IMG/VR virus record: IMGVR_UViG_3300031885_000127
Location: 1 to 22,445 of that record
Reading direction: 5' to 3' (one strand)
DNA from: a virus
Length of the DNA: 22,445 bases
In this document: positions 4,301-22,374 of the stretch, in pieces
Numbering within the stretch: the first letter of the stretch is position 1
Layout of the letters: the number at the start of each line of letters is the position of its first letter
Position numbers and translations under genes: made by a program
Notes under the pieces: generated by a model
The model's database searches: none
What the model saw: only the letters and a program-made list of their open reading frames with translations
What the model was told of the DNA's origin: nothing

Positions 4301-4906
4301 GGTATTTAAACCATTTTGAATAGTTGAAGTTATACCAGTTGTTACGCCGGTAATCATATTTTGAATTACGTTCTGTAAATTCGTTGACCCAGAGTAAAAA
4401 GTTGTAGCAGACACATTTGTTGAAATAGAATTTCCTCCAACAGATGTTCCTGAATAATTTATATTATTAAACGAAGGAGATTCTACAACATTAACAATAG
4501 GAGAAATTGATGTTCCACTTATTGAAACGTTTGACCCTGCATTTACTTTGTTTACAAAAATATCATAAACATCAGTGCTTGCAGAGAATATTGTTCCACC
4601 ACTTAAAGTTGTTGCACTAGCTTGGAAAAATTGTGTTATTCCGCTTGTAAATAAATTATTAAAACTTCCTCCGGTTATGTTTATTGAGGTGTTTATTATT
4701 GTTCCAGAAGTAAATGTGTTTATACCACTACTTACTTTTGTTCCACCAGAAACTACAGAATTTAATAAGTCTCCAAGATTTGTGCTTCCTGAAAATATTG
4801 TTGTAGCGGATAAATTAGCAGTAAACAGAGTATCCCCAGTAACGGTTCCGCCACTGAGGTTTAAAAATTCTCTATTTAGAGGGTAAAAATAATTTCCGCT
4901 TCCCAT
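1367..4906 (-). CDS. Large repetitive tail fibre protein
   Basis: A 1179-residue Ser/Thr/Gly-rich protein starting MGSGNYFYPLNREFLNLSGG. Most of its length is built of degenerate modules containing LSANTLSGGTIYSGATELS and GLNTYTGGT, each module about 70-80 residues; six copies of the GLNTYTGGT element are visible. Near the middle (roughly residues 620-740) a different module with NTLPIWTSSKVLGNSIITQ interrupts the repeats. The C-terminal ~120 residues, from YGAFGLTIDGSGLPITTGQKG through DLWK, LTGWTT and the final SRVNLTIKT, resemble a receptor-proximal/terminal beta domain that recurs at the ends of phage tail proteins. The repeats probably form an extended trimeric shaft whose length can vary by recombination. 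It sits 3 bp downstream of the BppU-like gene and just upstream of another appendage gene. The role as fibre is inferred from composition, repeats and context; no chaperone or enzymatic motif is visible. Confidence 0.82.
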   Translation of the reverse strand: MGSGNYFYPLNREFLNLSGGTVTGDTLFTANLSATTIFSGSTNLGDLLNSVVSGGTKVSSGINTFTSGTIINTSINITGGSFNNLFTSGITQFFQASATTLSGGTIFSASTDVYDIFVNKVNAGSNVSISGTSISPIVNVVESPSFNNINYSGTSVGGNSISTNVSATTFYSGSTNLQNVIQNMITGVTTGITSTIQNGLNTYTGGTGFLPTINVSALTIDNINVSGTSVFTGGLSANTLSGGTIYSGNTDVSLLFATPQNISLINSQLTTKANLSGATFIGGIISPSLSATTLSGGTIYSGATELSLIINSQITGITSGLINTHVQNGLNTYTGGTADLPTVNISALTINTLTASGTSVFSNGLSANTLSGGTILSGSTNLYSIFVTSGSLIPTYVQNGLNTYTGGTINNPTVNVSALTINTLTASGTSVFSNGLSANTLSGGTIYSGATELSLIINSQITGVTSNLTSTRVQNGLNTYTGGTPDLPTVNISGGSFNSIIASGTSVFNGGLSANTLSGGTIYSGATELSLIINSQITGVTSNLTSTRVQPGLNTYTGGTPDLPTVNVSALTINNLLVSGNTTLQNVTANTLSASTLFSGSTDLYNIFTQGSGTINTLPIWTSSKVLGNSIITQSNSGITVNGSVNILGNVDILGTATTINTQIIQSLDNNILLNYSGNHISAIGGGITVLSGQPSGVASVWETDANGNWSANTQIIATNGLNVYGGSLQSGGTNLYSIFDPLGSGVQSVVAGSNIITAGTITNPIISVVTSPSFNNLTLSGTGISNAFSSTTLSGGTIYSGATELSLIINSQITGITSNLVNTHVQNGLNTYTGGTAALPTVNVSALTINNITVSGNSIFSTLSASTISGGTFYGNGSGLTLSGYLTGATSVGGGYSVLSSVSGQNVNLKTISPGSGITIFSSGDTLIINNDFEVSGTLREGASTTTSGTTSKIINTITGFTGGSYMVESYITAYNGVSEYGMWKRILGVYHSGGTPIITYEKADFDKQNDGLSPISVSYNPTTAGTIDIIVTGATDSFEWKSYHEVIDEGVNSILDVSHYGAFGLTIDGSGLPITTGQKGYVTIPYSATIYGWDLIGNISGSCVIDLWKTTLSSFPPTSINTITGNQKPTLNNQMVNRNDSLTGWTTSINANDILAFTVLSASTLSRVNLTIKTIKN
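2395..4320 (-). repeat. In-gene tandem and dispersed repeats of the fibre gene
   Basis: Near-identical DNA modules lie inside the fibre gene. A 26-bp tract (beginning gaattaataattaaag on the plus strand) is identical at 2472, 3303, 3531 and 3972, and each copy is embedded in a longer similar block coding for the SLIINSQITG segment. Copies at 3303 and 3531 are 228 bp (76 codons) apart and stay alike over most of that distance. Similarity at the DNA level, not only at the protein level, points to recent duplication or gene conversion between modules. Confidence 0.85.
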
Positions 4907-5787: not shown

Positions 5788-6276
5788 TTATGCTAATAAA
5801 CATCTGTCTGGTTGTATAGTGATTTTACACTTAATAACATCATCAGAACCGTAATCAAACGAATCAAAATCTGCAGATGTAATCATACAACCTACCATTG
5901 TCCATTTTTCAACATCAACACCTACCGGGTCAAGAGCTTTAAGAACAAGATTTTTCTTGTATCCTACAGCGTATCCCATTTTTCCAGTTGCTGATTCAGC
6001 GTGTAAACGAACCCACTCCATAACTTTTTGAGTAGTAGATGGTCCTATTACGTCGATAAATTCGATGTCAATAGTTTCCCATTTGTATCTACCAGCAACG
6101 AAAGTTGAGGTGTTCATATACTGAATTTCAGTAGAATTGATTGTGATTTTAGGTTTTCCTGAAGTTTGTACCAGGTAAGACTCAAATCCAAGCTCAGTTG
6201 GAAATTCAAGATAAAATCTATTTTTTCTTTTTGGTTCCTGTTCGATTGGAACAGGACGAAACATTACTACTCCCAT
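5788..6276 (-). CDS. Tail tube protein (T4 gp19-like)
   Basis: A 162-residue protein of normal size for T4-like tail tube subunits (T4 gp19 is 163 residues). It contains the family pattern in order: PKRKNRFYLEFP near the N-terminus, GKPKITINSTEIQYMNTSTFVAGRYKW, an IDIEFIDVIGPSTTQKVMEW segment, LVLKALDPVGVDVEKW and the closing TSADFDSFDYGSDDVIKCKITIQ. Subunits stack as hexameric rings inside the sheath to form the DNA conduit. It lies downstream of the sheath gene, separated from it by two non-structural genes, and has its own TATTTAT leader motif and its own terminator, as expected for a protein needed in many copies. The start ATG at 6274-6276 leaves a normal-length N-terminus. Confidence 0.92.
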   Translation of the reverse strand: MGVVMFRPVPIEQEPKRKNRFYLEFPTELGFESYLVQTSGKPKITINSTEIQYMNTSTFVAGRYKWETIDIEFIDVIGPSTTQKVMEWVRLHAESATGKMGYAVGYKKNLVLKALDPVGVDVEKWTMVGCMITSADFDSFDYGSDDVIKCKITIQPDRCLLA

Positions 6277-6344: not shown

Positions 6345-6701
6345 TTAAACGAAGGGATTTCCTGATTTCTTCAGGTTTTCTATAAGTCCTTCTATTTTAA
6401 CACAGTTTTGTTTAAAAGATAAAATATCACCGGCAGACAAATCAAACCACTCACCTTTTAATTTTTCAAAATCATATTTGTAATTTTCAGTAACTTTTTT
6501 TGATGATAATGAATTGTGTAATATTTTTTCTACTTTAAAAGGAAATTTACTTTCATGAACATAAACCACAGAAAGCTCATATGGAGTGCCAGTTTGAAGC
6601 TGTTTAAGTCTTTTTTGAGGATTGACAGAAATTCCTATTTTGTAAAAATTAATGATTTTACAATGAATAAGATAAATTTTATATTCCCTCTTTTTTTGCA
6701 T
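6345..6701 (-). CDS. GIY-YIG superfamily protein (T5orf172/MUG113-like)
   Basis: A 118-residue protein with the start of a GIY-YIG-type nuclease fold: IYLIHCKIINFYKIGIS at residues 9-25, then PQKRLKQLQTGTPYEL, the signature of the T5 Orf172/MUG113-like branch. A helical region follows (VEKILHNSLSSKKV and GEWFDLSAGDIL), including a conserved-looking Glu in the GEWF motif that could be the metal ligand. Family members are DNA-binding or DNA-cleaving and often behave as mobile or free-standing homing-type genes in phages. It lies between two structural genes that adjoin in T4 (18 and 19), fitting a later insertion. Nuclease activity is inferred. No hairpin terminator follows it, so transcripts may read into the tail tube gene. 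Confidence 0.68.
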   Translation of the reverse strand: MQKKREYKIYLIHCKIINFYKIGISVNPQKRLKQLQTGTPYELSVVYVHESKFPFKVEKILHNSLSSKKVTENYKYDFEKLKGEWFDLSAGDILSFKQNCVKIEGLIENLKKSGNPFV

Positions 6702-6730: not shown

Positions 6731-7426
6731 TTATAAAGTGCTATTATAATATTTAATCAATGCTTCATAAGTAGAGGCCCAAGGATGACTAAATGCTTTT
6801 GCTCCTAATGGTGGCCTTTGTGTTAAAACATCTTCAAGTGATATGTCCATATATTTAAGCATATAAGCCCCGGTAACCGCACCAGTTCTATCATGTCCAT
6901 GTTCGCAATGATAATATATTACAGTATTTTTTTCTGTTTTCATCATTGAATAAATATAATCTATAAGTCCCGAAAAATTAAATTGAGAAGGTTCAACTAT
7001 ACTACAATTACTCATATCTGTACAACCTTGTACTGGATACCAAATTACGCTCCCACTATAACTATTAACACTATTTCCATATTGTTTTCTTACATTAACA
7101 CCGTTCCAAAATGGCGGCCAAGTTGTTTGAAAAGGAAATGTGGTATCAAATTCTTCTTGAGACATTCCATAAGCAAGAAATTCATCATTAAGGTCTCCTC
7201 TTTCACTGTTTGGATTATTATCAATAATAGATATTGTAATAAGTTTATTTTTTGTTAAATCAAAATCAGTAATTAAAGTTTGCAATTTTTCATTAATAGA
7301 ATTATAAGCAAATGTACCATCTTCATTTAATGGCTCGTTTCCGCGAACAAGATAATTATTGTTTTCTGTATTTGCAGTAACTAAATAAGTACGTTTTGGG
7401 CTGTAAGTTGCGTTTGGTGTTTTCAT
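6731..7426 (-). CDS. Cysteine-based dual-specificity/tyrosine phosphatase-like protein
   Basis: A 231-residue protein starting MKTPNATYSPKRTYLV. The active-site loop HCEHGHDRTG (residues 173-182) matches the HCx5R(S/T) signature of protein tyrosine and dual-specificity phosphatases, with Cys174 as nucleophile and Arg180 binding phosphate; it is followed by the usual helix GAVTGAYMLKYM. The general-acid Asp cannot be placed with confidence. I prefer the ATG at 7424-7426 to the one at 7462, since the extension would lie in the sheath terminator. It may act on phosphoproteins, phosphoinositols or RNA 5' ends; the substrate cannot be told from sequence. It sits between tail sheath and tail tube with its own TATTTAT motif, so it is expressed with virion genes, raising the possibility that it is packaged or acts late on the host. 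Confidence 0.72.
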   Translation of the reverse strand: MKTPNATYSPKRTYLVTANTENNNYLVRGNEPLNEDGTFAYNSINEKLQTLITDFDLTKNKLITISIIDNNPNSERGDLNDEFLAYGMSQEEFDTTFPFQTTWPPFWNGVNVRKQYGNSVNSYSGSVIWYPVQGCTDMSNCSIVEPSQFNFSGLIDYIYSMMKTEKNTVIYYHCEHGHDRTGAVTGAYMLKYMDISLEDVLTQRPPLGAKAFSHPWASTYEALIKYYNSTL

Positions 7427-7433
7427 TTTTTTA

Positions 7434-7444
7434 TTATAAATAAC
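7434..7444 (-). promoter_or_regulatory. Candidate late promoter motif TTATTTATAA
   Basis: The coding strand reads GTTATTTATAA, ending 7 nt before the phosphatase ATG at 7426 and directly after the sheath terminator. It is one of the six TATTTAT-type leader motifs. Confidence 0.4.
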
Positions 7445-7479
7445 AAAAAAAAAGGGATACATTTTATTGTATCCCTTTT
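7445..7479 (-). terminator. Intrinsic terminator after the tail sheath gene
   Basis: The arms AAAGGGATACA (7451-7461) and TGTATCCCTTT (7468-7478) form a perfect 11-bp stem with a 6-nt loop, followed on the minus strand by a T-run opposite the A-run from 7445. It lies 22 bp past the sheath stop codon and closes that transcription unit. Confidence 0.88.
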
Positions 7480-7500
7480 ATTATTTAATTTACGTTTTTA

Positions 7501-10152
7501 TTAGAAATCTTGGAAGTTAGCTCCTTGAGGTAAAACTTGGAATGTCAAGTCAATAAACTCTAAAGCTGGTGTAGGCTTAAGCTGAATTTTACCTGTTAAA
7601 GTATTTGGGTCAGCTTGTGGACTACTATCAAGAACAACTCTGAAAGCTTCTAAACCTCTTTGATTTTGAATCTGAAGAAGGATTGGTTCTACTTTTTGTA
7701 AGAATTGGTCTCTAACAGTTGCATCGTTTTGTTCAAACAATAACGTTTGAGATGCTGCCGCGATTAATCTTCTTACTTGTAATAATAATCTTCTAACATT
7801 AACTCTATCAAGAGTAGATTGTCTAACTTGTAAAGTTTTTTGTCCAAAAATCACAACACCTTGTTGTACAAATGTCGCGATAGGGTTAATTCTATCTTGA
7901 TATAAAGTATCTCTATCATTCTGGTCAAGTCTGATATCAGCTCTTTGAACCATGTTTGACACAACACCTCTATTGTAACCTGCAGGTGCAAACCAAGGAT
8001 AAGCTACATTGTCAGTTAATGCTATTGCTCTTACTACTTCCATAGTAGGGGCTACATAAACGTATTTATTGTAGTTTTGGTCATTAATTTGAATCCAAGG
8101 CCAGTATGTTGCAGCGTAGTTAGAGTCAATTCCTGTATCTTGAAGATTTGAAACTGCTTCTGAAGATGTTCCTTTTGCGTTAGCATCAGAAATTCTTGGA
8201 GCATCAACAATATAAAGTGAGTCAGCTCTATTCTCAACCATAGTTAAAGCGTATTTTACAACTGCTTCGTGATTATAATAATCTACACCCGGAACAGCAA
8301 CTAAGTTAATATCAACTTTTTCAGGATTTGACATTGCATCAATACCTTCTTTAATTGCAACAACGTTGTTTGCATCTATTGCAGAAGCTGTAAAGTCTGG
8401 GTTTCTAAATTTATTCCATCCATCAAAACCGCCGGCAGGTACTAAAGTGAACTTACGTTCTGCTTTTGTGTATCCACTAAGAGCAGTTTGATTTCCAACT
8501 TCATAAGTTGCAGTAGGAGCAGTACTTTCTAAGTGAAATCCTTTCACAACACTAGTTCCACTAGGTGTTGCACCAAGATAACTCCATAAATCATGCTCAA
8601 GAGTTTTAATAGATTGACTAACTGAAACTTGTGATGTAGTATAACCAGTATAAGCCAATTCTGATACACCAAGATAAGTTTTAAACACTGAATCTCCTGA
8701 GAAATATTGAGTTTTGTAATAAAGGTGTGGTGTTGTACCAGTACCATTTAAATCTCTAAATGTATAACCTCCAAAACCTGCAGGAACCGTATTTACCGGA
8801 GCATTTTCTGCCAAATCAAGAGTTACATAATTTGAGCGTCTTGGATATTCTTCATCTGTTGTACCAATTGCTTTTGCAATATAATTAGGTTGAGAAGGGT
8901 CAAGAGTTAATGCTCTGAATCTTTCTAAAGTAACGATAGCATTATCAGTATCACTATAAGACCTAATTAAAACATCAAAAGTTTTTGTAATATCATCAAT
9001 ATTTGCAATAGTAATTTTAATTTCTTCATTTGCACTATCACCATCAGAAATTGAAGTGAATTTAAATAAATCTCTCACAATTCCACCTGCAACCTTAGAA
9101 ACAATATAAGGAGTTTCTGGAGTTTTGTATTCTGTAATATAATCAGTATAAATTGAATTAGTAGAATAAGTAATAGCACTGCTAAGACCTAAAATATCAC
9201 CTCTCTTAGTAGCTTCTCTTACGAAGTGAGGGTAAATACTTTCAACATATAATCCAAAATCATTATTAAATTTCTTTGGATTTTTTCCAAGAACCTTAAC
9301 AATATAATCATCTCTTGTCTCATCTAATGAAACAGTAAGTCCGCTTTGAGTTTGCGCTGTTAAAGGACCTGTTGTTCCACTTATGAAAAAAGGAAGTAAT
9401 GTTCCAGTAACGTTTCCTAATACAATAGCACTTGAAAGGTTTGCATAGAATTGTGCACCAGAAGGGTCTCCTTCATTAGAAGATTTACTTCTAATTATAC
9501 AAATAGGCGCTCCTGAGTATGCTCCTGAGCTTTGTAATGAATTCGCATTTAAAGTAAAAGTCTCAGTTCCTGCAGAATTAATATAAGTCGATGGACTAGC
9601 TCCTGCTACAGAAATACCAAAACCACTAAATGGAGTTGAATTAACTGTATTTAACCAAGTAGTTGTAGTAATAGCGCTACCACTAAAACTTACGAAAACA
9701 TCATTTGCAATTGTTGTAGCAGTTATGGTTCCATTAGCCATTGAGGTGTTAGCAGAAGTTACAAAATTCCAAGCTGTAATATTTGCTACATTTGAAATAG
9801 AAAAAGTCATACCAGAAGACGTTGTTGTTCCTGAAAAGAAATCTTCATCACTAGCTTTTATAATCCAAGCAGCTGAATTCGTAAATCCTTCTTTACCAAG
9901 AACTCTTGTTATTGTAAGTTCTTGTGATTGTTGTAAAAACGAATTTGCAACATATGGCAATTGAATTCTCGGGTCTGTTGTACCGAATCTAGCCACATAT
10001 TCATCTGTGCTTCCTATTTTTATAGGTTCAAAAGCCGGTCCTTTAGTAGTTTCACCTACTAATCCTAGTCTTGTTATTCCTATTTGAGATGCGAATACTG
10101 AAAAATCTTGTTCTCTAGTGTAAACGCCTGGTGATACGAAAACTGTTGCCAT
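7501..10152 (-). CDS. Tail sheath protein (T4 gp18-like)
   Basis: An 883-residue contractile sheath subunit. The N-terminus MATVFVSPGVYTREQDFSVF and the following GLVGETTKGPAFEPIKIGS with YVARFGT match T4-like sheath proteins. The C-terminal third holds the core domain that interlocks subunits: ATYWPWIQIND, PWFAPAGYNRGV, NPIATFVQQGVVIFGQKT and RVNVRRLLLQVRRLI, ending in a beta strand IDLTFQVLPQG. T4 gp18 has 659 residues; the extra ~220 here lie in the middle (roughly residues 95-480), which is Ser/Thr/Gly-rich and probably forms added surface domains. It polymerises around the tail tube and contracts to drive infection. It is the largest gene before the fibre, preceded by a 26-bp gap after an 88-residue gene and followed by a strong terminator. 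Confidence 0.94.
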   Translation of the reverse strand: MATVFVSPGVYTREQDFSVFASQIGITRLGLVGETTKGPAFEPIKIGSTDEYVARFGTTDPRIQLPYVANSFLQQSQELTITRVLGKEGFTNSAAWIIKASDEDFFSGTTTSSGMTFSISNVANITAWNFVTSANTSMANGTITATTIANDVFVSFSGSAITTTTWLNTVNSTPFSGFGISVAGASPSTYINSAGTETFTLNANSLQSSGAYSGAPICIIRSKSSNEGDPSGAQFYANLSSAIVLGNVTGTLLPFFISGTTGPLTAQTQSGLTVSLDETRDDYIVKVLGKNPKKFNNDFGLYVESIYPHFVREATKRGDILGLSSAITYSTNSIYTDYITEYKTPETPYIVSKVAGGIVRDLFKFTSISDGDSANEEIKITIANIDDITKTFDVLIRSYSDTDNAIVTLERFRALTLDPSQPNYIAKAIGTTDEEYPRRSNYVTLDLAENAPVNTVPAGFGGYTFRDLNGTGTTPHLYYKTQYFSGDSVFKTYLGVSELAYTGYTTSQVSVSQSIKTLEHDLWSYLGATPSGTSVVKGFHLESTAPTATYEVGNQTALSGYTKAERKFTLVPAGGFDGWNKFRNPDFTASAIDANNVVAIKEGIDAMSNPEKVDINLVAVPGVDYYNHEAVVKYALTMVENRADSLYIVDAPRISDANAKGTSSEAVSNLQDTGIDSNYAATYWPWIQINDQNYNKYVYVAPTMEVVRAIALTDNVAYPWFAPAGYNRGVVSNMVQRADIRLDQNDRDTLYQDRINPIATFVQQGVVIFGQKTLQVRQSTLDRVNVRRLLLQVRRLIAAASQTLLFEQNDATVRDQFLQKVEPILLQIQNQRGLEAFRVVLDSSPQADPNTLTGKIQLKPTPALEFIDLTFQVLPQGANFQDF

Positions 10153-10178
10153 TATTTTATTTGTTTTTTTTTACTGTT

Positions 10179-10445
10179 TTATTTTTTCTTTGAGCTTTTT
10201 TTCTCTCCACTTTCAGACATATAGCTCTCTACGTCTTTTGTTGCTTTTGCTAATTTTTCACTATCAGAAATCTTTTCGTCTACAATACTTACCCAAGCAT
10301 TTTCGATTTCAATTTTATTTAAGATTTCAGAACAATCATTAATTTCAATAATTCCATTAGATTCTAACTCAACTGATTTACGAGCACCTTCATTATTAAT
10401 ATAATAAATCATTTTAGGACCTACGCTATTATTTTTAAGTTTCAT
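10179..10445 (-). CDS. Small lysine-tailed protein of unknown function
   Basis: An 88-residue protein starting MKLKNNSVGPKMIYYINNEG. Its first ~55 residues look like a small beta domain (KMIYYINNEGARKSVELESNGIIEI, AWVSIV); the end is a charged helix finishing in the basic run KKSSKKK. There is no membrane segment or catalytic motif. It lies directly before the sheath gene and carries a leader motif CACTATTTATTG identical to that of the gene at 5683. It may be a minor virion or tail assembly protein. I do not recognise the family. Confidence 0.6.
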   Translation of the reverse strand: MKLKNNSVGPKMIYYINNEGARKSVELESNGIIEINDCSEILNKIEIENAWVSIVDEKISDSEKLAKATKDVESYMSESGEKKSSKKK

Positions 10446-10466
10446 TATCTCTTAATTTTTATTTCC

Positions 10467-10475
10467 AATAAATAG
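10467..10475 (-). promoter_or_regulatory. Candidate late promoter motif CTATTTATT (sheath transcription unit)
   Basis: The coding strand reads CACTATTTATTG, 21 nt before the ATG of the 88-residue gene that leads into the sheath gene. It is identical over 12 nt to the site at 5709-5717. A sheath unit with its own promoter and terminator would suit a highly abundant protein. Confidence 0.48.
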
Positions 10476-10492
10476 TGGGAAATTCTCAAAAC

Positions 10493-11203
10493 TCACAGCT
10501 CTTTTATGTCTATTTTAATTTTAGTTATCGTTGGCACTCTTTCAAAGTTTGTTGGGTCCACCAATTTGCCATAAACCGATAATGGAAACACAATTTGAAA
10601 TTTTCTATCAGCAGTTATTTCATCAACAGTATTATCTTCACTTGGGTCACTAAGCATTAATGGAATATGGTAGCCATTTACGTTCATATAGCCTTGTCCA
10701 TCAGAAAACCCATCCATTATCATTCTTTCATAAGAAGTGTTAGTATCCTGTATATAATGCGTTAAAAAACGTAATTCATATTGAGCGTCAACTCGTGGAG
10801 GTTGTGGGATTTTATATAAATCATAACCTTTAAGTGTTCCGTCAAAAATAGGAACTTTTACAAAAACAAATTTTTTCTTTTTTGGAATAGTTCTTTTTAG
10901 AGGATTTTGGCCCGGCTTTACACCAGTTCTTCTAATTGTCATAAAAGGCATATTTATTTCTTCTCCACTTTCATCCTTTAGAAATTTCCAATTCATCTTA
11001 AATTCAGCCCATCTTTCTTGGTTTAGAAAAATAAGAGGAACTCTAGCTAATCTATCTTCAGCATTAACAACAGAGATATTTAAAGAATTAATATAATCAA
11101 CTACTCCTTGGTCAATATCTTCTAAAAGAAGCTTTTTTGGCAAATAATCATTGTTTTCAAAACTTTGATTAAGCAGGTTGTTTATGTTTTTTTGAATAGA
11201 CAT
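10493..11203 (-). CDS. Tail sheath stabiliser/tail terminator (T4 gp15-like)
   Basis: A 236-residue protein starting MSIQKNINNLLNQSFE. It shares the layout of T4 gp15: ARVPLIFLNQERWAEFKMNW (compare the RVPITYASKEHF region of gp15), a middle INMPFMTIRRTGVKPG, a PRVDAQYELRFLTHY strand followed by a helix, and a late KFQIVFPLSVYGKLVDP. gp15 caps the tail and joins it to the neck. Gene order supports this: gp13-like, gp14-like, gp15-like, then sheath and tube, with the terminase genes found between 15 and 18 in T4 absent here. I chose the ATG at 11201-11203 because the longer form starting at 11266 would run through the TATTTAT motif and the plus-strand promoter. The identification rests on pattern and synteny. 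Confidence 0.7.
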   Translation of the reverse strand: MSIQKNINNLLNQSFENNDYLPKKLLLEDIDQGVVDYINSLNISVVNAEDRLARVPLIFLNQERWAEFKMNWKFLKDESGEEINMPFMTIRRTGVKPGQNPLKRTIPKKKKFVFVKVPIFDGTLKGYDLYKIPQPPRVDAQYELRFLTHYIQDTNTSYERMIMDGFSDGQGYMNVNGYHIPLMLSDPSEDNTVDEITADRKFQIVFPLSVYGKLVDPTNFERVPTITKIKIDIKEL

Positions 11204-14626: not shown

Positions 14627-15421
14627 ATGAAAAAAACTTTATTAATTATTGACCCACAAGTAGATTTTTGTATGCCAGGCGGAGCGCTTTTTGTTAATAA
14701 CGCAGATGTTGATATGCAAAAACTTTCAAATTTTATTATAGAAAATGCAGAACAAATAGAATCAATAATTGTTTCACTTGATATGCATATGCTAGAAGAT
14801 ATAGCACATTCAATTTATTGGATTAATTCAGAAGGTAAACATCCGGAACCATTTACTAACATTACTTTTAATGATGTAAAGTCTGGTGTTTGGAAAACAA
14901 AAAATCCGATAATGCAAAGTCATGTATTATATTATCTTGAACAATTAGAATCAGGTGGAAAATTTGTTCATACAATATGGCCAAACCATTGTATTGCCGG
15001 CACACAAGGTTCAAATATTTTTCCAACTCTTTTGGTTGCTATTAAGAATTGGATGGAAATATCTAAGAAACCATTTACTACATACATAAAAGGGATGAAT
15101 CCAACATCTGAACAATTCGGTATTTTTCAAGAAGAAGTACAAACAAGTGATATTGAAGGAGATTTTAATCATAATCTTTTTAAACAAATTTTTAAATATA
15201 ACCAAGAAGTATTAGTTGCTGGACAAGCAAAATCACATTGCGTAGCAACTTCTTTGAAACAAATTTATGAAATGTTTCCAAATACTATTAAAAACATAAC
15301 TCTTTTAACTGACACAACATCAAATGTAACCGGATGTGAACATATTGCAGATAAAATTTATGAAGATTTACGTACTGCAGGAATGAAAGAATTAACAACA
15401 TCAGAAATTTTTAAAAAATAA
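14627..15421 (+). CDS. Nicotinamidase/isochorismatase-like hydrolase
   Basis: A 264-residue cysteine hydrolase of the nicotinamidase branch. Visible motifs: LLIIDPQVDFCMPGGAL with catalytic Asp9; SLDMHMLEDIAHS with metal ligands Asp52, His54 and His61; WPNHCIAGTQGS at 118-129; catalytic Lys155 in YIKGMNP; and AGQAKSHCVATS with nucleophile Cys205. All triad and metal residues are present, so activity is likely. It converts nicotinamide to nicotinate, feeding the NAD salvage pathway of the host. In phages this could restore NAD consumed by the infection or by NAD-depleting defence systems; other amide substrates are possible. It is followed after 3 bp by a small membrane protein gene. Confidence 0.85.
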   Translation: MKKTLLIIDPQVDFCMPGGALFVNNADVDMQKLSNFIIENAEQIESIIVSLDMHMLEDIAHSIYWINSEGKHPEPFTNITFNDVKSGVWKTKNPIMQSHVLYYLEQLESGGKFVHTIWPNHCIAGTQGSNIFPTLLVAIKNWMEISKKPFTTYIKGMNPTSEQFGIFQEEVQTSDIEGDFNHNLFKQIFKYNQEVLVAGQAKSHCVATSLKQIYEMFPNTIKNITLLTDTTSNVTGCEHIADKIYEDLRTAGMKELTTSEIFKK

Positions 15422-15646: not shown

Positions 15647-16120
15647 ATGAAAAAAATCATCACCTTAGCTTTAATCGTGCTTTCATTTGGCGCGTTTTCA
15701 CAAACAGATTCAACAAAAACAAAAACCAGTTATTACACCTCGGTCGGATTATCAATTGGACACGTTGACCCTAATGACCAAAATATTGATAATTTTAACA
15801 AAGCATCATATCCTTCTGTTGAAGTTGGTTTTATGCGTAAAAACGTAAGTCTTGGCGCTGTATTTGGAGTTGAGAATATTTTTGTTTCATCTAACACGAG
15901 AGGATTTTACGAACTTAAAACATCAATTTCTAAACCAATAGGTGATTTTAGTGGATATGCCTTATTTGGAGTTGGAGCTTATATGGAAAGTGGATTTAAT
16001 AATTTCATTGAATATGGTGCTGGGTTTTCTTATGCCCCGGGTAAAGTTGGATATTTTGTACAATACAGTAATTGGGCCAGAACGAATTACGTTTCAACCG
16101 GTTTAATATTTAATTTTTAA
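15647..16120 (+). CDS. Outer-membrane beta-barrel protein with signal peptide
   Basis: A 157-residue precursor. Residues 1-18 are a typical signal peptide (MKKIITLALIVLSFGAFS, cleavage likely before Gln19). The mature part consists of alternating amphipathic strands (TSYYTSVGLSIGHV, YPSVEVGFMRKNVSLGAVFGV, YALFGVGAYMES, IEYGAGFSYAP) and ends NYVSTGLIFNF, with the C-terminal Phe used by the BAM machinery to recognise outer-membrane proteins. About 8 strands would fit. It resembles small Bacteroidota outer-membrane barrels rather than virion proteins. In a phage it may block or replace a receptor or change envelope permeability. It is tightly linked to the envelope genes downstream. The barrel call is from composition and ends; function is inferred. 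Confidence 0.72.
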   Translation: MKKIITLALIVLSFGAFSQTDSTKTKTSYYTSVGLSIGHVDPNDQNIDNFNKASYPSVEVGFMRKNVSLGAVFGVENIFVSSNTRGFYELKTSISKPIGDFSGYALFGVGAYMESGFNNFIEYGAGFSYAPGKVGYFVQYSNWARTNYVSTGLIFNF

Positions 16121-16892: not shown

Positions 16893-17579
16893 ATGGGCTT
16901 TAAAAGTTTATTTCTTACAAATACTGACGAACCTCAAAAGGAGGAAGTAAAATCAGAAGTTAAAACGGAAATTAAAAAAGAATCTTCCGTGAAGTTTCCT
17001 TCATCTAAAAATGAATTTGAAACACCGGTTAAACAAAATCAATCTCAAGGAAACCCAGATATTCAAAAACATTTGGAAAAATTCGCAGAGATTTATCATA
17101 CAACCTTTGAGAATTTAAATCAACCAGGGTATGATTTTTTTGAATATTATACTACGGTACTTAGTGGCGATATAGCAGACCCTAAAACTTACGCTATGGC
17201 TTTCAATATGGGTAAAGCTATGGATAAAACAATTACAAAAGAAAAATTGTTAGAGTATTCACAGTATTATATTGCTGAAACAGATAAAATTTATAACAAA
17301 TTTATTACTGATGGTAATGCGAAAAAACAAGATTTAGAAAGTCAAAAGCATACCGAAAACGAAAATCTTTCCAGCGAATTAAGTTCACTTAAACAGCAAT
17401 TAGAAAGTATTAAAGTCCAAATTCAGGATAAAGAAAATAAATTATCTCTTATTGATAATAAATATCAACCTCTAATTGTAGAAGTTGAAAATAAACTTAC
17501 AGCAAATGACTCGGCTAAAAATAAAATGATGTCAACAATAGAAACAGTAAAACAAGGAATAATTAATAATTTAAAATAA
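16893..17579 (+). CDS. Coiled-coil protein of the transporter cluster, unknown function
   Basis: A 228-residue soluble protein starting MGFKSLFLTNTDEPQKEEV. Three parts are visible: a charged, disordered N-terminus (about 1-55); a helical domain about 55-130 (IQKHLEKFAEIYHTTFENL, YDFFEYYTTVLSGDIADP, AMAFNMGKAMD); and a long coiled coil from about 140 to the end (SSELSSLKQQLESIKVQIQD). There is no membrane segment. It starts the block of six closely spaced genes that ends with the ABC ATPase, 4 bp before a membrane-anchored coiled-coil gene. The pair may form a cytoplasmic scaffold or stalk, perhaps sensing or gating the transporter. I do not recognise the family; a relation to tellurite-resistance/TelA-type coiled-coil proteins was considered but no motif supports it. 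Confidence 0.6.
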   Translation: MGFKSLFLTNTDEPQKEEVKSEVKTEIKKESSVKFPSSKNEFETPVKQNQSQGNPDIQKHLEKFAEIYHTTFENLNQPGYDFFEYYTTVLSGDIADPKTYAMAFNMGKAMDKTITKEKLLEYSQYYIAETDKIYNKFITDGNAKKQDLESQKHTENENLSSELSSLKQQLESIKVQIQDKENKLSLIDNKYQPLIVEVENKLTANDSAKNKMMSTIETVKQGIINNLK

Positions 17580-17583
17580 AATT

Positions 17584-18732
17584 ATGGAAACCAAAACAAA
17601 AACAATTAGTATAAATGGCACCAGCTCGCTTGGTTCAAGTAAGATGATGGAGTTGCCAATTTTTAAACATTTTAGTGAAGGCGAAATTACTAAACAAATA
17701 GATTCTTTCAGAAAAGGAGAGAAAGGGCTTTTTAGTATTTTAAAATTATTATTCTTTGGAGGTTTAGCAGTTGCATTTTTTATGTTTGCTTTACCTAAAA
17801 TTATGGTTATGGTTGGCGCAACATTAGGAGCAATCGCTTCGGTTGCTGCAGTTGTGGCGGCTATAATTTTCGCTCCGGTGGGTATTAAATGGATGCGTAA
17901 ACTTGCAAGAACAATGCATAAAAATCTTATTAAAAGTGACCCATTTGGTCAATTAGAACAAGAGAGGGTTAAAATGCTTGAAAATCAACAGCAATTTCGA
18001 GTTGCCACCAGTAAGGTTGCTCAACTTAGAAGTGATATGGAAACAGAGTCTGTAAAATCCGAAAAAGATGCTCTTAAATTACAAACTGACATTTTGGTAA
18101 TACAAGGTCAAGTTGAAAAAATGAAGAACGCTTTAGAAGAAATGGTTAAAACTCAAGGTGTTGAAGCACGCGAATCAGATGAATACGTGAACTTAAATTC
18201 TGAATACATAAAAGCATTATCAAAATCTGATGTTGTTCGTAATAAGTTAATACAAGCAAAAGATTTTGTTACAAAATATGGTACTCGTGCGGCTATTATG
18301 AAAAAGTTTACTCAAAAACTTAAGATGGTTGAAACTGGTATGGAAATAAAACTTTCTGACTTTGATGCGACCATTGAGATTCTTAAGAAAGATTATGAAT
18401 TCGCTTCAAAATCTCGATTAGCAACAGAAAGCGCAAAATCAGCAATGTTATTTACAAAGAGCTGGGAATTAGAATATGCTTTAGATGTTGTAACCACAAC
18501 TATTGCTGAAGATATCGCAATTACATCTGGTAACTTAAGAGATATTGACTCAATTTCAAGTGGTAAATACAATGTAAACAGCGACGAATTATATATCAAC
18601 TTAAATCAATTAGCTGATGGTATAAAAGTTGGAGAAAGTTTTGTTCCTAAAGCAAAAGCTTATGCGAACCCTGATTATGTATTAACACAAAACGACAGAG
18701 CTAGTTCTGGTGGTTTAGATAACGTATTTTAG
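17584..18732 (+). CDS. Membrane-anchored coiled-coil protein, unknown function
   Basis: A 382-residue protein starting METKTKTISINGTSSLG. An amphipathic/charged region (24-48) leads into two membrane segments, about 50-70 (LFSILKLLFFGGLAVAFFMF) and 74-98 (an Ala/Val-rich stretch ending AAIIFAPVG), followed by the basic IKWMRKLARTMHKNLIK, which should stay in the cytoplasm. Residues about 120-310 are long heptad-like helices (EQERVKMLENQQQF, LRSDMETESVKSEKDALKL), giving a cytoplasmic coiled coil. The C-terminal ~70 residues are mixed. The layout recalls PspA- or TelA-associated envelope stress proteins, without a diagnostic motif. It is followed after 2 bp by a 55-residue gene and then the binding-protein gene, so it probably works with the ABC system. 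Confidence 0.62.
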   Translation: METKTKTISINGTSSLGSSKMMELPIFKHFSEGEITKQIDSFRKGEKGLFSILKLLFFGGLAVAFFMFALPKIMVMVGATLGAIASVAAVVAAIIFAPVGIKWMRKLARTMHKNLIKSDPFGQLEQERVKMLENQQQFRVATSKVAQLRSDMETESVKSEKDALKLQTDILVIQGQVEKMKNALEEMVKTQGVEARESDEYVNLNSEYIKALSKSDVVRNKLIQAKDFVTKYGTRAAIMKKFTQKLKMVETGMEIKLSDFDATIEILKKDYEFASKSRLATESAKSAMLFTKSWELEYALDVVTTTIAEDIAITSGNLRDIDSISSGKYNVNSDELYINLNQLADGIKVGESFVPKAKAYANPDYVLTQNDRASSGGLDNVF

Positions 18733-18734
18733 TG

Positions 18735-18902
18735 ATGGCAGTGCACAAAGAAATAATCGGCAAAGAGCTTTATGTTTATATGAATGGAAAGCTTTTATAT
18801 AAAAGATGGCTCGACACCGGACAATCATTAACTTTTGATGTGAGACCTTATGATAAACACACATTAGTTAGTATTACAGAAAATGCAACAATAAAAAAAT
18901 AA
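18735..18902 (+). CDS. 55-residue protein of unknown function
   Basis: A short frame MAVHKEIIGKELYVYMNGK through TLVSITENATIKK, starting 2 bp after the preceding stop. It has a regular beta pattern (ELYVYMNGKLLYKRWLD, SLTFDVRPYDKHTLVSI) and no membrane segment, so a small beta-barrel or Sm/SH3-like fold is possible. Evidence that it is real: exact packing in the operon, normal codon use and a compact folded-looking composition. A GTG one codon upstream (18732) overlaps the previous stop and could be the start instead. Function unknown. Confidence 0.6.
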   Translation: MAVHKEIIGKELYVYMNGKLLYKRWLDTGQSLTFDVRPYDKHTLVSITENATIKK

Positions 18903-18966
18903 AACAACAAATAAGTAACAAAAAAACAAACAATTAACAATTAAGTATAAACGAAAAAAAAATCAA

Positions 18967-20781
18967 ATGGGAAAAATCTTAAAAATTCAAAAATTCACAA
19001 CATTATTAGAATTTGTGATATTAATTTTCGGACTTGGAATAGTCGGAACTGGTGTATATTATTTAGCTCCAGGACTTCATGTGGGCGAATCAAAACAATT
19101 AAAAGCATTAGATATTAGTAAAGAAAATATCGACAATGCAGCTAAAGGAAGTTTGATGTCGCTTCCATCTTTTGAAGTATCTACTGCTGTTTCAAATAAA
19201 CCTTTAACCAGAATTGCAGAATATGCATGGAATGGTAACACTGGTATGATTGGAGCTAATGGTGGCCCAAGAACAACAAAAGGTTCAATTATGGAATCTT
19301 TAGAAATTAACTTGGAAATTGTTAGACAAGATATGGTTGGTGGATTACGCGATATGATGATTAAATTCGTTGAAGAATTTGCAAACGGAAGTAATTTCCC
19401 GGTATCAGATAAATCAGCTCCTCTTGTTAGTATTATGGGTGACGGTGGGCCATTTTTTATAGCAACACTTCAAAGTGCTTTAGATGAAAAATTTGGTGCC
19501 GGTAAATTCCATGTTCAAGTTGTGGGTGCTATTGGATTATCATATGGTGAAGATAAATTAATTGGGCCAAAAGAATGGAAAGAAAATCCACAATTAATGA
19601 AAGGCGCTTTAATTTCTTCTGTTGTTGGAGATGGTGATTGGGTTTTAAATGTAAATCACGCTTTTGCTTGTGGATTACGTGTTAACCCAGACGCAACAAC
19701 TTATGATGAAGATGCAGTAAATTTCACTCCATCAAAAGATGATGATTATATTCAATCTGTAAAAGAATTAATCCAATCTCAAAAAACTGGATATACAGTA
19801 CCTTTAAAAGAAGTTAAAAACGGAAAGTTGACCGGCAAAACTATTAATAAGAAAATTGACGGTGCTACAACTTGGACTCCTGGTGATAAAATGGCATTTG
19901 AAGCATTATCTGGATTTACAGACATCGTTTCAACTAAAGACTATAACAACCAAATGGCCACAACAATTATTACAATTAAAGAGTGGGCTGTAAAAAATGA
20001 TAAATTAGTTAGTAATTTACTTAAAGGAACTTATATTGCTAATAACCAAATTAAACAATATGATGAATGGTGTGTTAAAGCTGCAGAAGCTGTAGCAAAA
20101 ACATACAATTTAGAAGATGGTAAATATTGGTATGATTTATTTAAAGGTCAAAAAGGAACTAAAGATGGTGTAGAATTTCACGTTGGTGGAACTAAAGTTT
20201 TAAACTACGCTGATGCAATGCAATATTATGGTATTACTGATGGAAATAATCGTTACAAATCAGTTTACAACCAAGTATCAAGCTACTTAACTGAATTAAA
20301 TCCTTGTGGTTTCAATCAATCAGTAAAGAGTGGAGTTGTTCCTTATGATGAAGCTGTAAATTTATATTTCTTAAAAAACATTAATGATATCGACGCTGGT
20401 AAAACTGAAAAAGTTGATTACACTGCAACAAAAACAGAAGTAATGGCAACCGGTGAGTGGCATATTAATTTTGCAACAGGAAGTAACGCAATCAGTGGTT
20501 CAGATAAGGATTTACAAACAATTTATAATTTGTTAATCCAAGCTGAAAATACTAAATTGACAATAATTGGTCATACCGATAATACCGGTAACTCTCAAGC
20601 CAATATGACTCTTTCAAAAGGTCGTGCTAACTCAGTGGTTGAATATTTAGTTAATAAAGGAATATCAAGCGACCGTTTTCAATTGGTAGATGGTAAAGGT
20701 GATACTGACCCAACTTCTGAAAATAATACATCAGTTGGCAAAGCAAAAAACAGACGTGTAGTAATTACATTGTTAAAATAA
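18967..20781 (+). CDS. Membrane-anchored substrate-binding protein fused to an OmpA domain
   Basis: A 604-residue fusion. Residues 11-37 (TTLLEFVILIFGLGIVGTG) form one membrane helix with no clear signal-peptidase site, so it likely remains an inner-membrane anchor. Residues about 60-480 look like a periplasmic binding protein of the nitrate/sulfonate/phosphate type: SIMGDGGPFFIATLQSAL, WVLNVNHAFACGLRVN, WTPGDKMAFEALSGFTDIVS and IITIKEWAVKND. Residues about 498-604 are an OmpA-like peptidoglycan-binding domain: WHINFATGSNAI, IIGHTDNTG (533-541), LSKGRANSVVEYLVNKGIS, DGKGDTDP and NRRVVI, with the Asp and Arg used to bind diaminopimelate present (Asp538, Arg553). The protein would therefore link inner membrane, solute and cell wall. 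Permease and ATPase genes follow at once. Binding-protein/OmpA fusions exist in bacterial annotations; ligand here is unknown. Confidence 0.78.
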   Translation: MGKILKIQKFTTLLEFVILIFGLGIVGTGVYYLAPGLHVGESKQLKALDISKENIDNAAKGSLMSLPSFEVSTAVSNKPLTRIAEYAWNGNTGMIGANGGPRTTKGSIMESLEINLEIVRQDMVGGLRDMMIKFVEEFANGSNFPVSDKSAPLVSIMGDGGPFFIATLQSALDEKFGAGKFHVQVVGAIGLSYGEDKLIGPKEWKENPQLMKGALISSVVGDGDWVLNVNHAFACGLRVNPDATTYDEDAVNFTPSKDDDYIQSVKELIQSQKTGYTVPLKEVKNGKLTGKTINKKIDGATTWTPGDKMAFEALSGFTDIVSTKDYNNQMATTIITIKEWAVKNDKLVSNLLKGTYIANNQIKQYDEWCVKAAEAVAKTYNLEDGKYWYDLFKGQKGTKDGVEFHVGGTKVLNYADAMQYYGITDGNNRYKSVYNQVSSYLTELNPCGFNQSVKSGVVPYDEAVNLYFLKNINDIDAGKTEKVDYTATKTEVMATGEWHINFATGSNAISGSDKDLQTIYNLLIQAENTKLTIIGHTDNTGNSQANMTLSKGRANSVVEYLVNKGISSDRFQLVDGKGDTDPTSENNTSVGKAKNRRVVITLLK

Positions 20782-20785
20782 AAAT

Positions 20786-21553
20786 ATGAAACTTCTAAAA
20801 CCTTTTGAGGAAATTAAGAGTTCAACAAAACTAACCATCCAATTGGGGTGGTTAGTTTTTATAATCTTAATATGGATGCTTGCGAGTCTTGGAGACACGC
20901 ATTTATTTCCAACGCCAATGCAAGTGTTAATTGGATTTAAAGAATTATTCTTTGAAGGATTAACCGTGCATGTTTTCAGTTCTTTGTGGTTATGCGCCCA
21001 ATCAGTATTTATTGGAGCATTAATATCATTAGTTTTTTGTTATTTATCTCCTCTGCCAATTTTAAAACCGTTGGCCGAGTCTGTATCTAAACTTAGATTT
21101 TTGCCATTAACCGGAATTTCTTTTTATATAACAATTTTTATTAATGACGCTAGAGGAATTCAGGTTTGGGTATTAGTTATTTTTATGGCAACATTTTTAA
21201 TCACATCAATACTTGGTGTTATTAATGATATTCCAGAAGAAGAATTTGACCACGCAAAAACACAAGGTTGTACGCGATGGGAAATGCTTTGGGAAGTTGT
21301 TATTAAGGGTAGATTTGATTATGTTATTGAAGCTATCAGACAAAATTTAGCTATAGTTTGGATGATGCTAGTATCTGTTGAATCTATTTTAATAGCAGCT
21401 GGTGGTCTTGGAACATTAATAAAAAATTCAGACAGAGCAGGTAGTAACGGTAGAGTAATAGCTGTGCAAATTATTATTATTTTAATAGGTATTGGTTTAG
21501 ATTATTCTTTAACAAAAATAAGAAAATTATCATTTAGATATTCAAACTTTTAA
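20786..21553 (+). CDS. ABC transporter permease (binding-protein-dependent, SsuC/TauC-like)
   Basis: A 255-residue integral membrane protein starting MKLLKPFEEIKSSTKLT. Hydrophobic segments lie at about 17-37, 62-90, 103-125, 126-148, 187-209 and 223-242, giving about six helices as in SsuC/TauC/nitrate permeases. The cytoplasmic EAA-type loop that docks to the ATPase is clear: DIPEEEFDHAKTQGCTRWEM followed by LWEVVIKGRFDYV. The final helices carry VESILIAAGGLGTLI, typical of this family. It starts 4 bp after the OmpA-fusion gene and ends 2 bp before the ATPase gene. A terminator-like hairpin is embedded at codons 16-25. Length is normal for the family, so this seems to be an intact transporter subunit. 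Substrate (sulfonate, nitrate, phosphate or other anion-like) is not determined. Confidence 0.88.
   Translation: MKLLKPFEEIKSSTKLTIQLGWLVFIILIWMLASLGDTHLFPTPMQVLIGFKELFFEGLTVHVFSSLWLCAQSVFIGALISLVFCYLSPLPILKPLAESVSKLRFLPLTGISFYITIFINDARGIQVWVLVIFMATFLITSILGVINDIPEEEFDHAKTQGCTRWEMLWEVVIKGRFDYVIEAIRQNLAIVWMMLVSVESILIAAGGLGTLIKNSDRAGSNGRVIAVQIIIILIGIGLDYSLTKIRKLSFRYSNF
20831..20860 (+). terminator. Intragenic terminator-like hairpin in the permease gene
   Basis: CTAACCATCC (20831-20840) and GGGTGGTTAG (20846-20855) pair over 10 bp with one G-U and a 5-nt loop, followed by TTTTT at 20856-20860. It lies 50-75 bp after the binding-protein stop codon and inside the permease reading frame. It could partially terminate transcription when the leading ribosome lags, giving more binding protein than transporter. 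Confidence 0.55.
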
Positions 21554-21555
21554 TT

Positions 21556-22374
21556 ATGTATACTTCAAAAGAAACAATATTATATCTAGACAAAGTAAGT
21601 GGTGGGTATGATGGTAAGGTTATTATAAAAGACATCAGTCTTATTGAGAAAAACATTATTCGTGATGGGTACGAATCTACGGGCCAAGTGATTGCGTTCC
21701 TTGGAAGGTCTGGTCGCGGCAAATCAACATTGTTTAAATTACTTACCGGTCTTATAAAACCAATTCAAGGTAAAGTTTTAATTACTGATATGTCAACCCC
21801 ATCAAATGATGATGCAAAAGAAGTTGGTGAGGGAGATGTTGGCTTTGTTAATCAGAAGTATACATTATTCCGTCATAAAACAGTTTATCAAATCTGTAAA
21901 TATGCTTTACGTAAAAGCACTCTTACGGAAATTGAGAAAAAGGAATTAATAGACAAATATCTTATTGAATGGGGGTTAGTTGAACACGCTCAGAAGTATT
22001 CTAATGAATTATCTGGTGGTCAGCGTCAACGTACTGCAATTATAGAACAAATCCTTTCCTCAAAGCATTTTATGGTGTTTGACGAGCCTTTTTCTGGATT
22101 AGATGTTGGAAATATCGAAAAAGTTAAACAATCGTTTGATAAAATTCAAAATAATAATGAATTAAATACAATCATATTTTCAACACACGACATTAAATTG
22201 GCGATTGAATTGGCTGATAGTATTTATGTTATCGGTCACCCAGAGGGAGAGACTGAATATAGTACAATTCTTAAAAACTTTGATTTAAAAGCTATGGGAT
22301 TGGCTTGGCAGGAGTATGGTGACGGCCATAGAAAAGTTTATAACGACATAAAAGAATTAATGTTAAAGTCGTAA
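21556..22374 (+). CDS. ABC transporter ATP-binding subunit
   Basis: A 272-residue nucleotide-binding subunit with every functional motif intact: Walker A GRSGRGKST (50-58), Q-loop Gln100 (GFVNQKYTLF), signature LSGGQ (152-156, ELSGGQRQRT), Walker B MVFDE (173-177) with D-loop SGLD, and switch His211 (FSTHD). Length and motif order fit importer ATPases of the SsuB/TauB/nitrate type. A slight extension after the second strand (KNIIRDGYESTG, about 32-43) is unusual. It powers the adjacent permease, starting 2 bp after it. No terminator is seen after it; a new promoter-like element and gene follow within 50 bp. Intact motifs argue against a decaying host fragment. Confidence 0.93.
   Translation: MYTSKETILYLDKVSGGYDGKVIIKDISLIEKNIIRDGYESTGQVIAFLGRSGRGKSTLFKLLTGLIKPIQGKVLITDMSTPSNDDAKEVGEGDVGFVNQKYTLFRHKTVYQICKYALRKSTLTEIEKKELIDKYLIEWGLVEHAQKYSNELSGGQRQRTAIIEQILSSKHFMVFDEPFSGLDVGNIEKVKQSFDKIQNNNELNTIIFSTHDIKLAIELADSIYVIGHPEGETEYSTILKNFDLKAMGLAWQEYGDGHRKVYNDIKELMLKS

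Follow-up and report, generated by a model that had tools for sequence, protein, structure and literature searches.

A putative wall-tethered ABC importer shared by huge phages and Bacteroidota chromosomes

Importers of the NitT/TauT group, such as TauABC, SsuABC, NrtABCD and CmpABCD, combine a binding protein, which is free in the periplasm or lipid-anchored, with an importer permease and an ATP-binding cassette (ABC) ATPase. Single transport genes are known in phages, for example those for phosphate-binding proteins. Transporters are not mentioned in the main text of a huge-phage survey (PMC7162821), and in the account of Lak-specific core proteins given by a Lak survey (PMC8346664), the annotated ones that are named comprise only a magnesium transporter, a SEC20-like and a pyruvyltransferase-like protein. 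Here, we describe a gene cluster at positions 16893-22374 of a 22,445-bp fragment of a virus record (IMGVR_UViG_3300031885_000127; the entire fragment is referred to as the window). With modest confidence, we read this cluster as a complete energised importer, which a huge phage installs in the inner membrane of its host.

We confirmed six open reading frames in the cluster (g1 to g6), all on the plus strand, without internal stops and closely packed, with successive intergenic gaps of 4, -1, 64, 4 and 2 bp. The binding protein g4 (18967..20781) is a fusion of 604 amino acids, which consists of a single N-terminal membrane helix (residues 12-33, the predicted inner-membrane anchor), a short disordered linker (34-60), a substrate-binding domain (61-480) and an OmpA-like peptidoglycan-binding domain (490-603). 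Its AlphaFold model (predicted local distance difference test score, pLDDT, 89.4; predicted template-modelling score 0.85) and the fold matches identify the binding domain as the two-lobed NMT1/TauA-like type of NitT/TauT importers: Foldseek paired it with TauA (TMt 0.70), NrtA, CmpA, SsuA and binders of thiamine, hydroxymethylpyrimidine (HMP) and pyrroloquinoline quinone (PQQ). The possibility that this domain might lack a binding-protein fold was thereby put aside; profile alignments to TauA or SsuA were too weak to place pocket residues. In the OmpA domain, PF00691 was recognised at residues 502-596 (E = 7e-19), and Foldseek matched a Bacteroidota OmpA at 39% identity. The Asp/Arg pair with which such domains hold peptidoglycan (D538 and R553, spacing 15) is invariant in alignment A4 and presumably equivalent to D271/R286 of A. 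baumannii OmpA, which are likewise 15 residues apart.

An N-terminal membrane segment is present in 147 of 152 g4 sequences, and a lipobox is absent from that of the window. Unlike the free or lipid-anchored binding proteins of NitT/TauT importers, g4 thus carries a membrane helix together with an OmpA domain, in agreement with the initial annotation, which had assigned it an inner-membrane anchor and a peptidoglycan-binding domain. Between phages and bacteria, identity reaches 62-65% in the binding domain, 57% in the OmpA domain and 39% at the N-terminus. As the binding domain is the best conserved part of g4, recognising the ligand seems to be the task that has been conserved. A viral protein matching the entire fusion was not found in BFVD, nor was a related OmpA-fused binding protein on the plasmids searched.

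The permease g5 (20786..21553; 255 amino acids) is of the BPD_transp_1 type and has an EAA loop at residues ~152-178. Its best-matching models were SaoP, TauC, NtrB and SsuC; all its matches were importer-type, and none was to FtsX/MacB-type permeases. The ATPase g6 (21556..22374; 272 amino acids) was recognised by PF00005 (E = 5e-25), and all its motifs are intact (GRSGRGKS, LSGGQ, FMVFDEP, STHD), with strong conservation of the catalytic ones across loci. Compared to TauB, g6 has a family-specific insert of nine residues before Walker A, which recurs in the main and in a second subfamily of the module. Identity is 26% between g5 and TauC and 24% between g6 and TauB, and the curated cut-offs of the NCBIfam equivalogs TauABC, SsuABC, NtrABC and SaoABP were not reached (41 of 295 bits for SaoP, 33 of 342 for TauC). 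Judged by domains, fold and intact motifs, the complete importer-type set of binding protein, permease and ATPase proposed earlier is indeed encoded here.

The two helical, coiled-coil accessory proteins predicted alongside this set were likewise recovered. The 228-residue g1 (16893..17579) has no membrane segment and is presumably cytosolic; it starts with the motif MGFKSLF, followed by a disordered linker and a helical C-terminal half. Similar N-terminal motifs occur in 118 of 132 g1 sequences, and g1 was found in the Lak, 735-kb phage and Bacteroidota copies of the module. Lak ATPases (L004:15174 and L005:14330) carry an N-terminal extension that starts with MSDFKTLFGQ and resembles the g1 start; both possibly represent a shared short docking motif. 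In g2 (17584..18732; 382 amino acids), two membrane helices (~52-70 and ~83-101) precede a positively charged stretch (MRKLARTMHKNLIK), which is why the subsequent long helical hairpin (122-288) is predicted to lie in the cytoplasm. No Pfam family was assigned to g2, and the Pfam scan gave no PspA match. A kinship of g1 or g2 with TelA/XpaC (toxic-anion resistance), for which bacterial gene neighbourhoods had spoken, was rejected, as the listed families included no Pfam match. Some g1 sequences matched EAD9 (E = 4e-5), for which a coiled-coil artefact is a possible explanation. Together, g1 and g2 constitute two new protein families that are constant companions of the module.

The small g3 (18732..18902; 56 amino acids, GTG start) does not belong to this module, which comprises the five core genes g1, g2, g4, g5 and g6. 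It lies between g2 and g4 solely in the window and in loci L028 and L029; several other phages encode it ~7-10 kb farther downstream. A conserved order of six genes, as first suggested, was therefore rejected with regard to g3, which does not occupy this slot outside the window's nearest relatives. For the five core genes it holds without exception: all five were recognised in 125 of 152 g4-carrying loci and are collinear in every one of these 125, and many of the loci with fewer recognised genes are truncated contigs.

With tblastn and pattern scans, relatives were found first in 33 and then in 58 viral contigs. Genomes contributed at least 108 loci, 80 of which were kept, nearly all from Bacteroidota. 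Overall, g4 loci came from ~65 viral contigs with lengths of up to 529 kb, huge-phage genomes of 462 kb and 735 kb, Lak megaphages and, with a patchy distribution, Bacteroidota chromosomes. The five genes occur in identical order in chromosomes of Flavobacterium, Aquimarina, Cellulophaga, Pedobacter and Chitinophagaceae, and the module is also present in LR756500 (462 kb), LR756501 (735 kb) and Lak phages; the Lak and 735-kb copies retain the gene order at ~18-30% identity. The second subfamily has a matching layout and includes Niastella (L148) as well as viral contigs, some of 374-529 kb and others smaller; in one of its members (L157), the module genes were not recovered by open reading frame calling. 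Phage sheath genes were present in five of the large contigs. The module is carried by very large phages from several unrelated lineages, most of which infect Bacteroidota; this confirms the proposed phage carriage (viral contigs, huge-phage genomes, Lak) and contradicts the possibility that homologous phages lack the cluster. In the 374-kb phage L149, g1 and the binding protein-OmpA fusion both occupy two overlapping frames instead of one (7322-7863 and 9007-10751), for which sequencing error, decay or frameshifting are possible explanations.

By its sequences, the cluster reads as the parts list of a type I importer whose receptor is pinned to the cell wall. Import is its likeliest function, because permease and ATPase are of the importer type and their motifs are intact; the direction follows from what is known of the family. 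The first helix of g4 would anchor the protein in the inner membrane, and its OmpA domain would grip the cell wall, so that the binding domain would be held in the periplasm beside g5, where it could capture a particular small solute. An anion, as first suggested, for instance an oxyanion or a sulfonate as in other NitT/TauT-type importers, is one candidate. The solute would then be moved inward by a dimer of g5, powered by a g6 ATPase dimer, as in TauABC/NrtABCD-type importers. At the cytoplasmic face, g2 and with it g1 may build a helical assembly, which probably positions or regulates the ATPase and could correspond to the cytoplasmic scaffold of the initial annotation. Since phages carry the same five-gene block as some Bacteroidota chromosomes, they seem to reconstruct a machine for nutrient uptake in infected cells.

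Several observations weigh against this interpretation. The PF00528 match of g5 (E = 1e-5, 25.4 bits) lies ~1 bit under the cut-off of 26.4, and its conserved EAA loop ends in G-x-x-D, where L-P is the usual form. No PDB sequence related to the g4 binding domain was found at E values up to 10. Ordinary importers do without proteins like g1 and g2, and the conservation of both therefore indicates that the machine may do more than import. Moreover, in random samples, only 3 of 148 phylum genomes and 2 of 99 order genomes carried the main-type gene, and such rarity in bacteria argues against an essential nutrient.

We also examined how the module reached these phages. On the g4 tree, the phage/bacterium label takes four changes, which correspond to the window's clade, to Lak with the 735-kb phage, to L143 and to L046, a 6.6-kb bin contig that is probably a phage. 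After removal of the long branches and of L046, 32 phage rows fall on one side of a branch in the unrooted tree (Shimodaira-Hasegawa-like approximate likelihood-ratio support 86, and 98 for 31 of them). As this single branch separates the clade from bacterial copies, one transfer, probably from a bacterium to a phage, would account for the window's clade; the Lak/735-kb and L143 copies of g4 are separate and deep. The module most likely stems from an operon in a Bacteroidota chromosome. With a GC content of 0.319, compared to 0.318 for the window, the cluster does not stand out in composition as recently acquired foreign DNA. Its gene leaders are A-rich, and an obvious Shine-Dalgarno sequence was not seen; such leaders are consistent with a Bacteroidota host.

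The window is not chimeric at the cluster, since L028 and L029 have an identical gene string through it, and this explanation, which had been considered from the outset, was rejected. The g4 genes of L028 and L029 share 93-97% identity and each is 70-81% identical to that of the window from 19.15 kb on, whereas the window genes flanking g4 match L028 at 88-100%. Synonymous divergence (dS) between the window and L028 is 0.83 for g4, 0.54 for g5 and 0.20-0.23 for g2 and g6. Because g4 diverges while L028 and L029 agree and the flanks match, positions 18967-21250 represent a recombinant segment, in which g4 and the beginning of g5 were exchanged for another allele that is under constraint; the donor was not found among the sampled phages. 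Ratios of nonsynonymous to synonymous divergence (dN/dS) against L028 were 0.03-0.21 over g1, g2, g4, g5 and g6, with 0.21 for g4, and show that the module genes of the window are under purifying selection.

The neighbourhood of the module differs between bacteria and phages. A CbbX/SpoVK-like AAA+ ATPase (PF00004, PF17866) adjoins the operon in 52 of 80 genome loci (L055:13479-14990, L043:3239-4699 and 50 others), on either side: directly downstream of g6 in 28 loci and upstream of g1 in 19 others. The Flavobacterium and Aquimarina genomes that were tested have no other PF17866 (AAA_lid_6) gene, and 16 phage records had none at all. The bacterial system may thus include an extra remodelling step that phages dispense with. 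Upstream of the cluster, the window encodes a 157-residue secreted protein, probably an outer-membrane beta-barrel (15647..16120, plus strand), which is optional in phages. In 21 of 64 phage loci, a homologue is encoded within a few kb of the module, and in L025, L033 and L037 it is inserted between g4 and g5; this protein is a possible outer-membrane partner of the module. A UVR-motif protein of 133-165 amino acids, restricted to phages, is encoded soon downstream of g6 (L006:12571-13056 and 34 other phage loci).

A gene of the NAPRTase/Nampt family (PF04095) precedes the module by 1.7 kb in L154 and follows it at 3 kb in L133; most main-clade phages have it 13-32 kb downstream on the same strand. 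It is often followed by Prs. Such NAPRTase/Nampt-family and Prs genes occur near the module in G244, G252, G249, G247, G011 and others, not in all phages. The PF04095 gene is 129 kb away in LR756500, ~90 kb in Lak and ~219 kb in the 735-kb phage. Linkage of the module with NAD salvage is real in part, not general.

The window's plus-strand gene string runs from 13734 to its end and includes a putative nicotinamidase/isochorismatase-type hydrolase (14627-15421), which was recognised by eye (DPQVDFC, SHCV) and has no Pfam match. The minus strand holds a contractile-tail region with sheath (7501-10152) and tube (5788-6276) genes. Amid these tail genes lie a dual-specificity phosphatase-like protein with an HCxxGxxRT-like motif (6731-7462) and an inserted MUG113/T5orf172 (GIY-YIG-like) domain protein (6345-6701). 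A Gly/Ser/Thr-rich, repetitive fibre-like protein of 1179 amino acids with many near-repeats (NTYTGGT, TLSGGTIYSG) is encoded at 1367-4906, also on the minus strand.

Importer parts might also serve as an envelope sensor or stabiliser, which we regard as possible, though clearly less probable than import. The tethered g4 would sense a periplasmic ligand or the state of the wall, and the ABC unit would signal to, or remodel, the g1/g2 assembly. Such an undescribed five-part machine of wall-pinned binding protein, ABC unit and membrane-bound coiled-coil assembly could sense or reshape the envelope during long huge-phage infections, with transport as its input rather than its purpose; this version carries the same tentative weight. 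The presence of g1 and g2 in every complete locus fits this idea, as does the anchor-plus-OmpA layout, which is like that of stator-type proteins (ZorB/MotB OmpA matches). The AAA+ gene so often found beside bacterial operons points in the same direction, but it is absent from the phages tested. Vipp1/PspA-like fold matches of g2, whose model has a pLDDT of 67, are non-significant (E 0.16-0.46, TM 0.2-0.3). The permease also speaks against this idea: it is of the importer type (BPD_transp_1/TauC-like) and not FtsX/MacB-like, which likewise disfavours the mechanical, FtsEX-like use of the ABC motor that the initial annotation had offered as its second option.

A phage-phage or defence device, in which the tethered complex blocks superinfection or counters host defence, is unlikely. 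The allele swap in the window's lineage affected the outward-facing g4 and not the cytoplasmic genes, a pattern as in specificity genes, but the dN/dS of g4 indicates purifying selection, and the operon is also chromosomal in bacteria. PADLOC matched generic ATPase and OmpA models only and no system-specific family; the NAD-salvage genes near some modules might hint at defence, but LR756500, Lak and the 735-kb phage show no such linkage. The same genes could instead suggest a special case of the importer reading, namely uptake of NAD precursors or pyrimidine-like molecules for phage nucleotide and NAD synthesis. The fold class of g4, which also binds HMP, thiamine and PQQ, would suit such ligands, yet the PF04095 gene is distant in those same three phages and its proximity in the main clade may reflect shared ancestry only, so that we consider this ligand assignment quite improbable. 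Equally improbable, and largely refuted, is a captured host operon that decays slowly in phage genomes without benefit. The main clade is likely of bacterial origin and the L149 module has two frame breaks, but the module is intact and collinear over several phage lineages despite ~18-30% identity, and selection in the window is purifying.

The importer therefore remains our favoured interpretation. That the window's clade, Lak, the 735-kb phage and additional huge phages all retain a complete five-gene importer in fixed order suggests that the need for environmental uptake recurs among very large genomes. For an uncharacterised operon of Bacteroidota, our results also provide a set of genes that are named and can be tested; a literature search found no published description of the five-gene module or of the function of the bacterial operon, which does not prove its absence.

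Compared to known systems, the module shares its binding-domain fold, one importer permease and one ATPase with TauABC, SsuABC, NrtABCD and CmpABCD. It differs from them in its membrane-anchored, OmpA-fused g4, in two extra conserved proteins, in the ATPase insert and in scores below curated cut-offs, and thus seems to be of the importer kind without being a TauABC/NrtABCD member. With FtsEX-EnvC and MacB it has an ABC ATPase and coiled-coil partners in common; in contrast to these, it has no FtsX-type permease, but an EAA-loop permease together with a substrate-binding domain. The OmpA domain of g4 has the peptidoglycan-binding fold and the Asp/Arg pair of Pal, the OmpA C-terminal domain and MotB/ZorB, but it tethers a solute-binding domain rather than a porin, lipoprotein or stator. 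The closest counterpart is the chromosomal operon of Flavobacterium, Aquimarina, Cellulophaga, Pedobacter and Niastella, which matches the module in all five genes and in their order, with 55-65% identity in g4, and differs in its frequent position beside the CbbX-like AAA+ gene that the tested phages lack.

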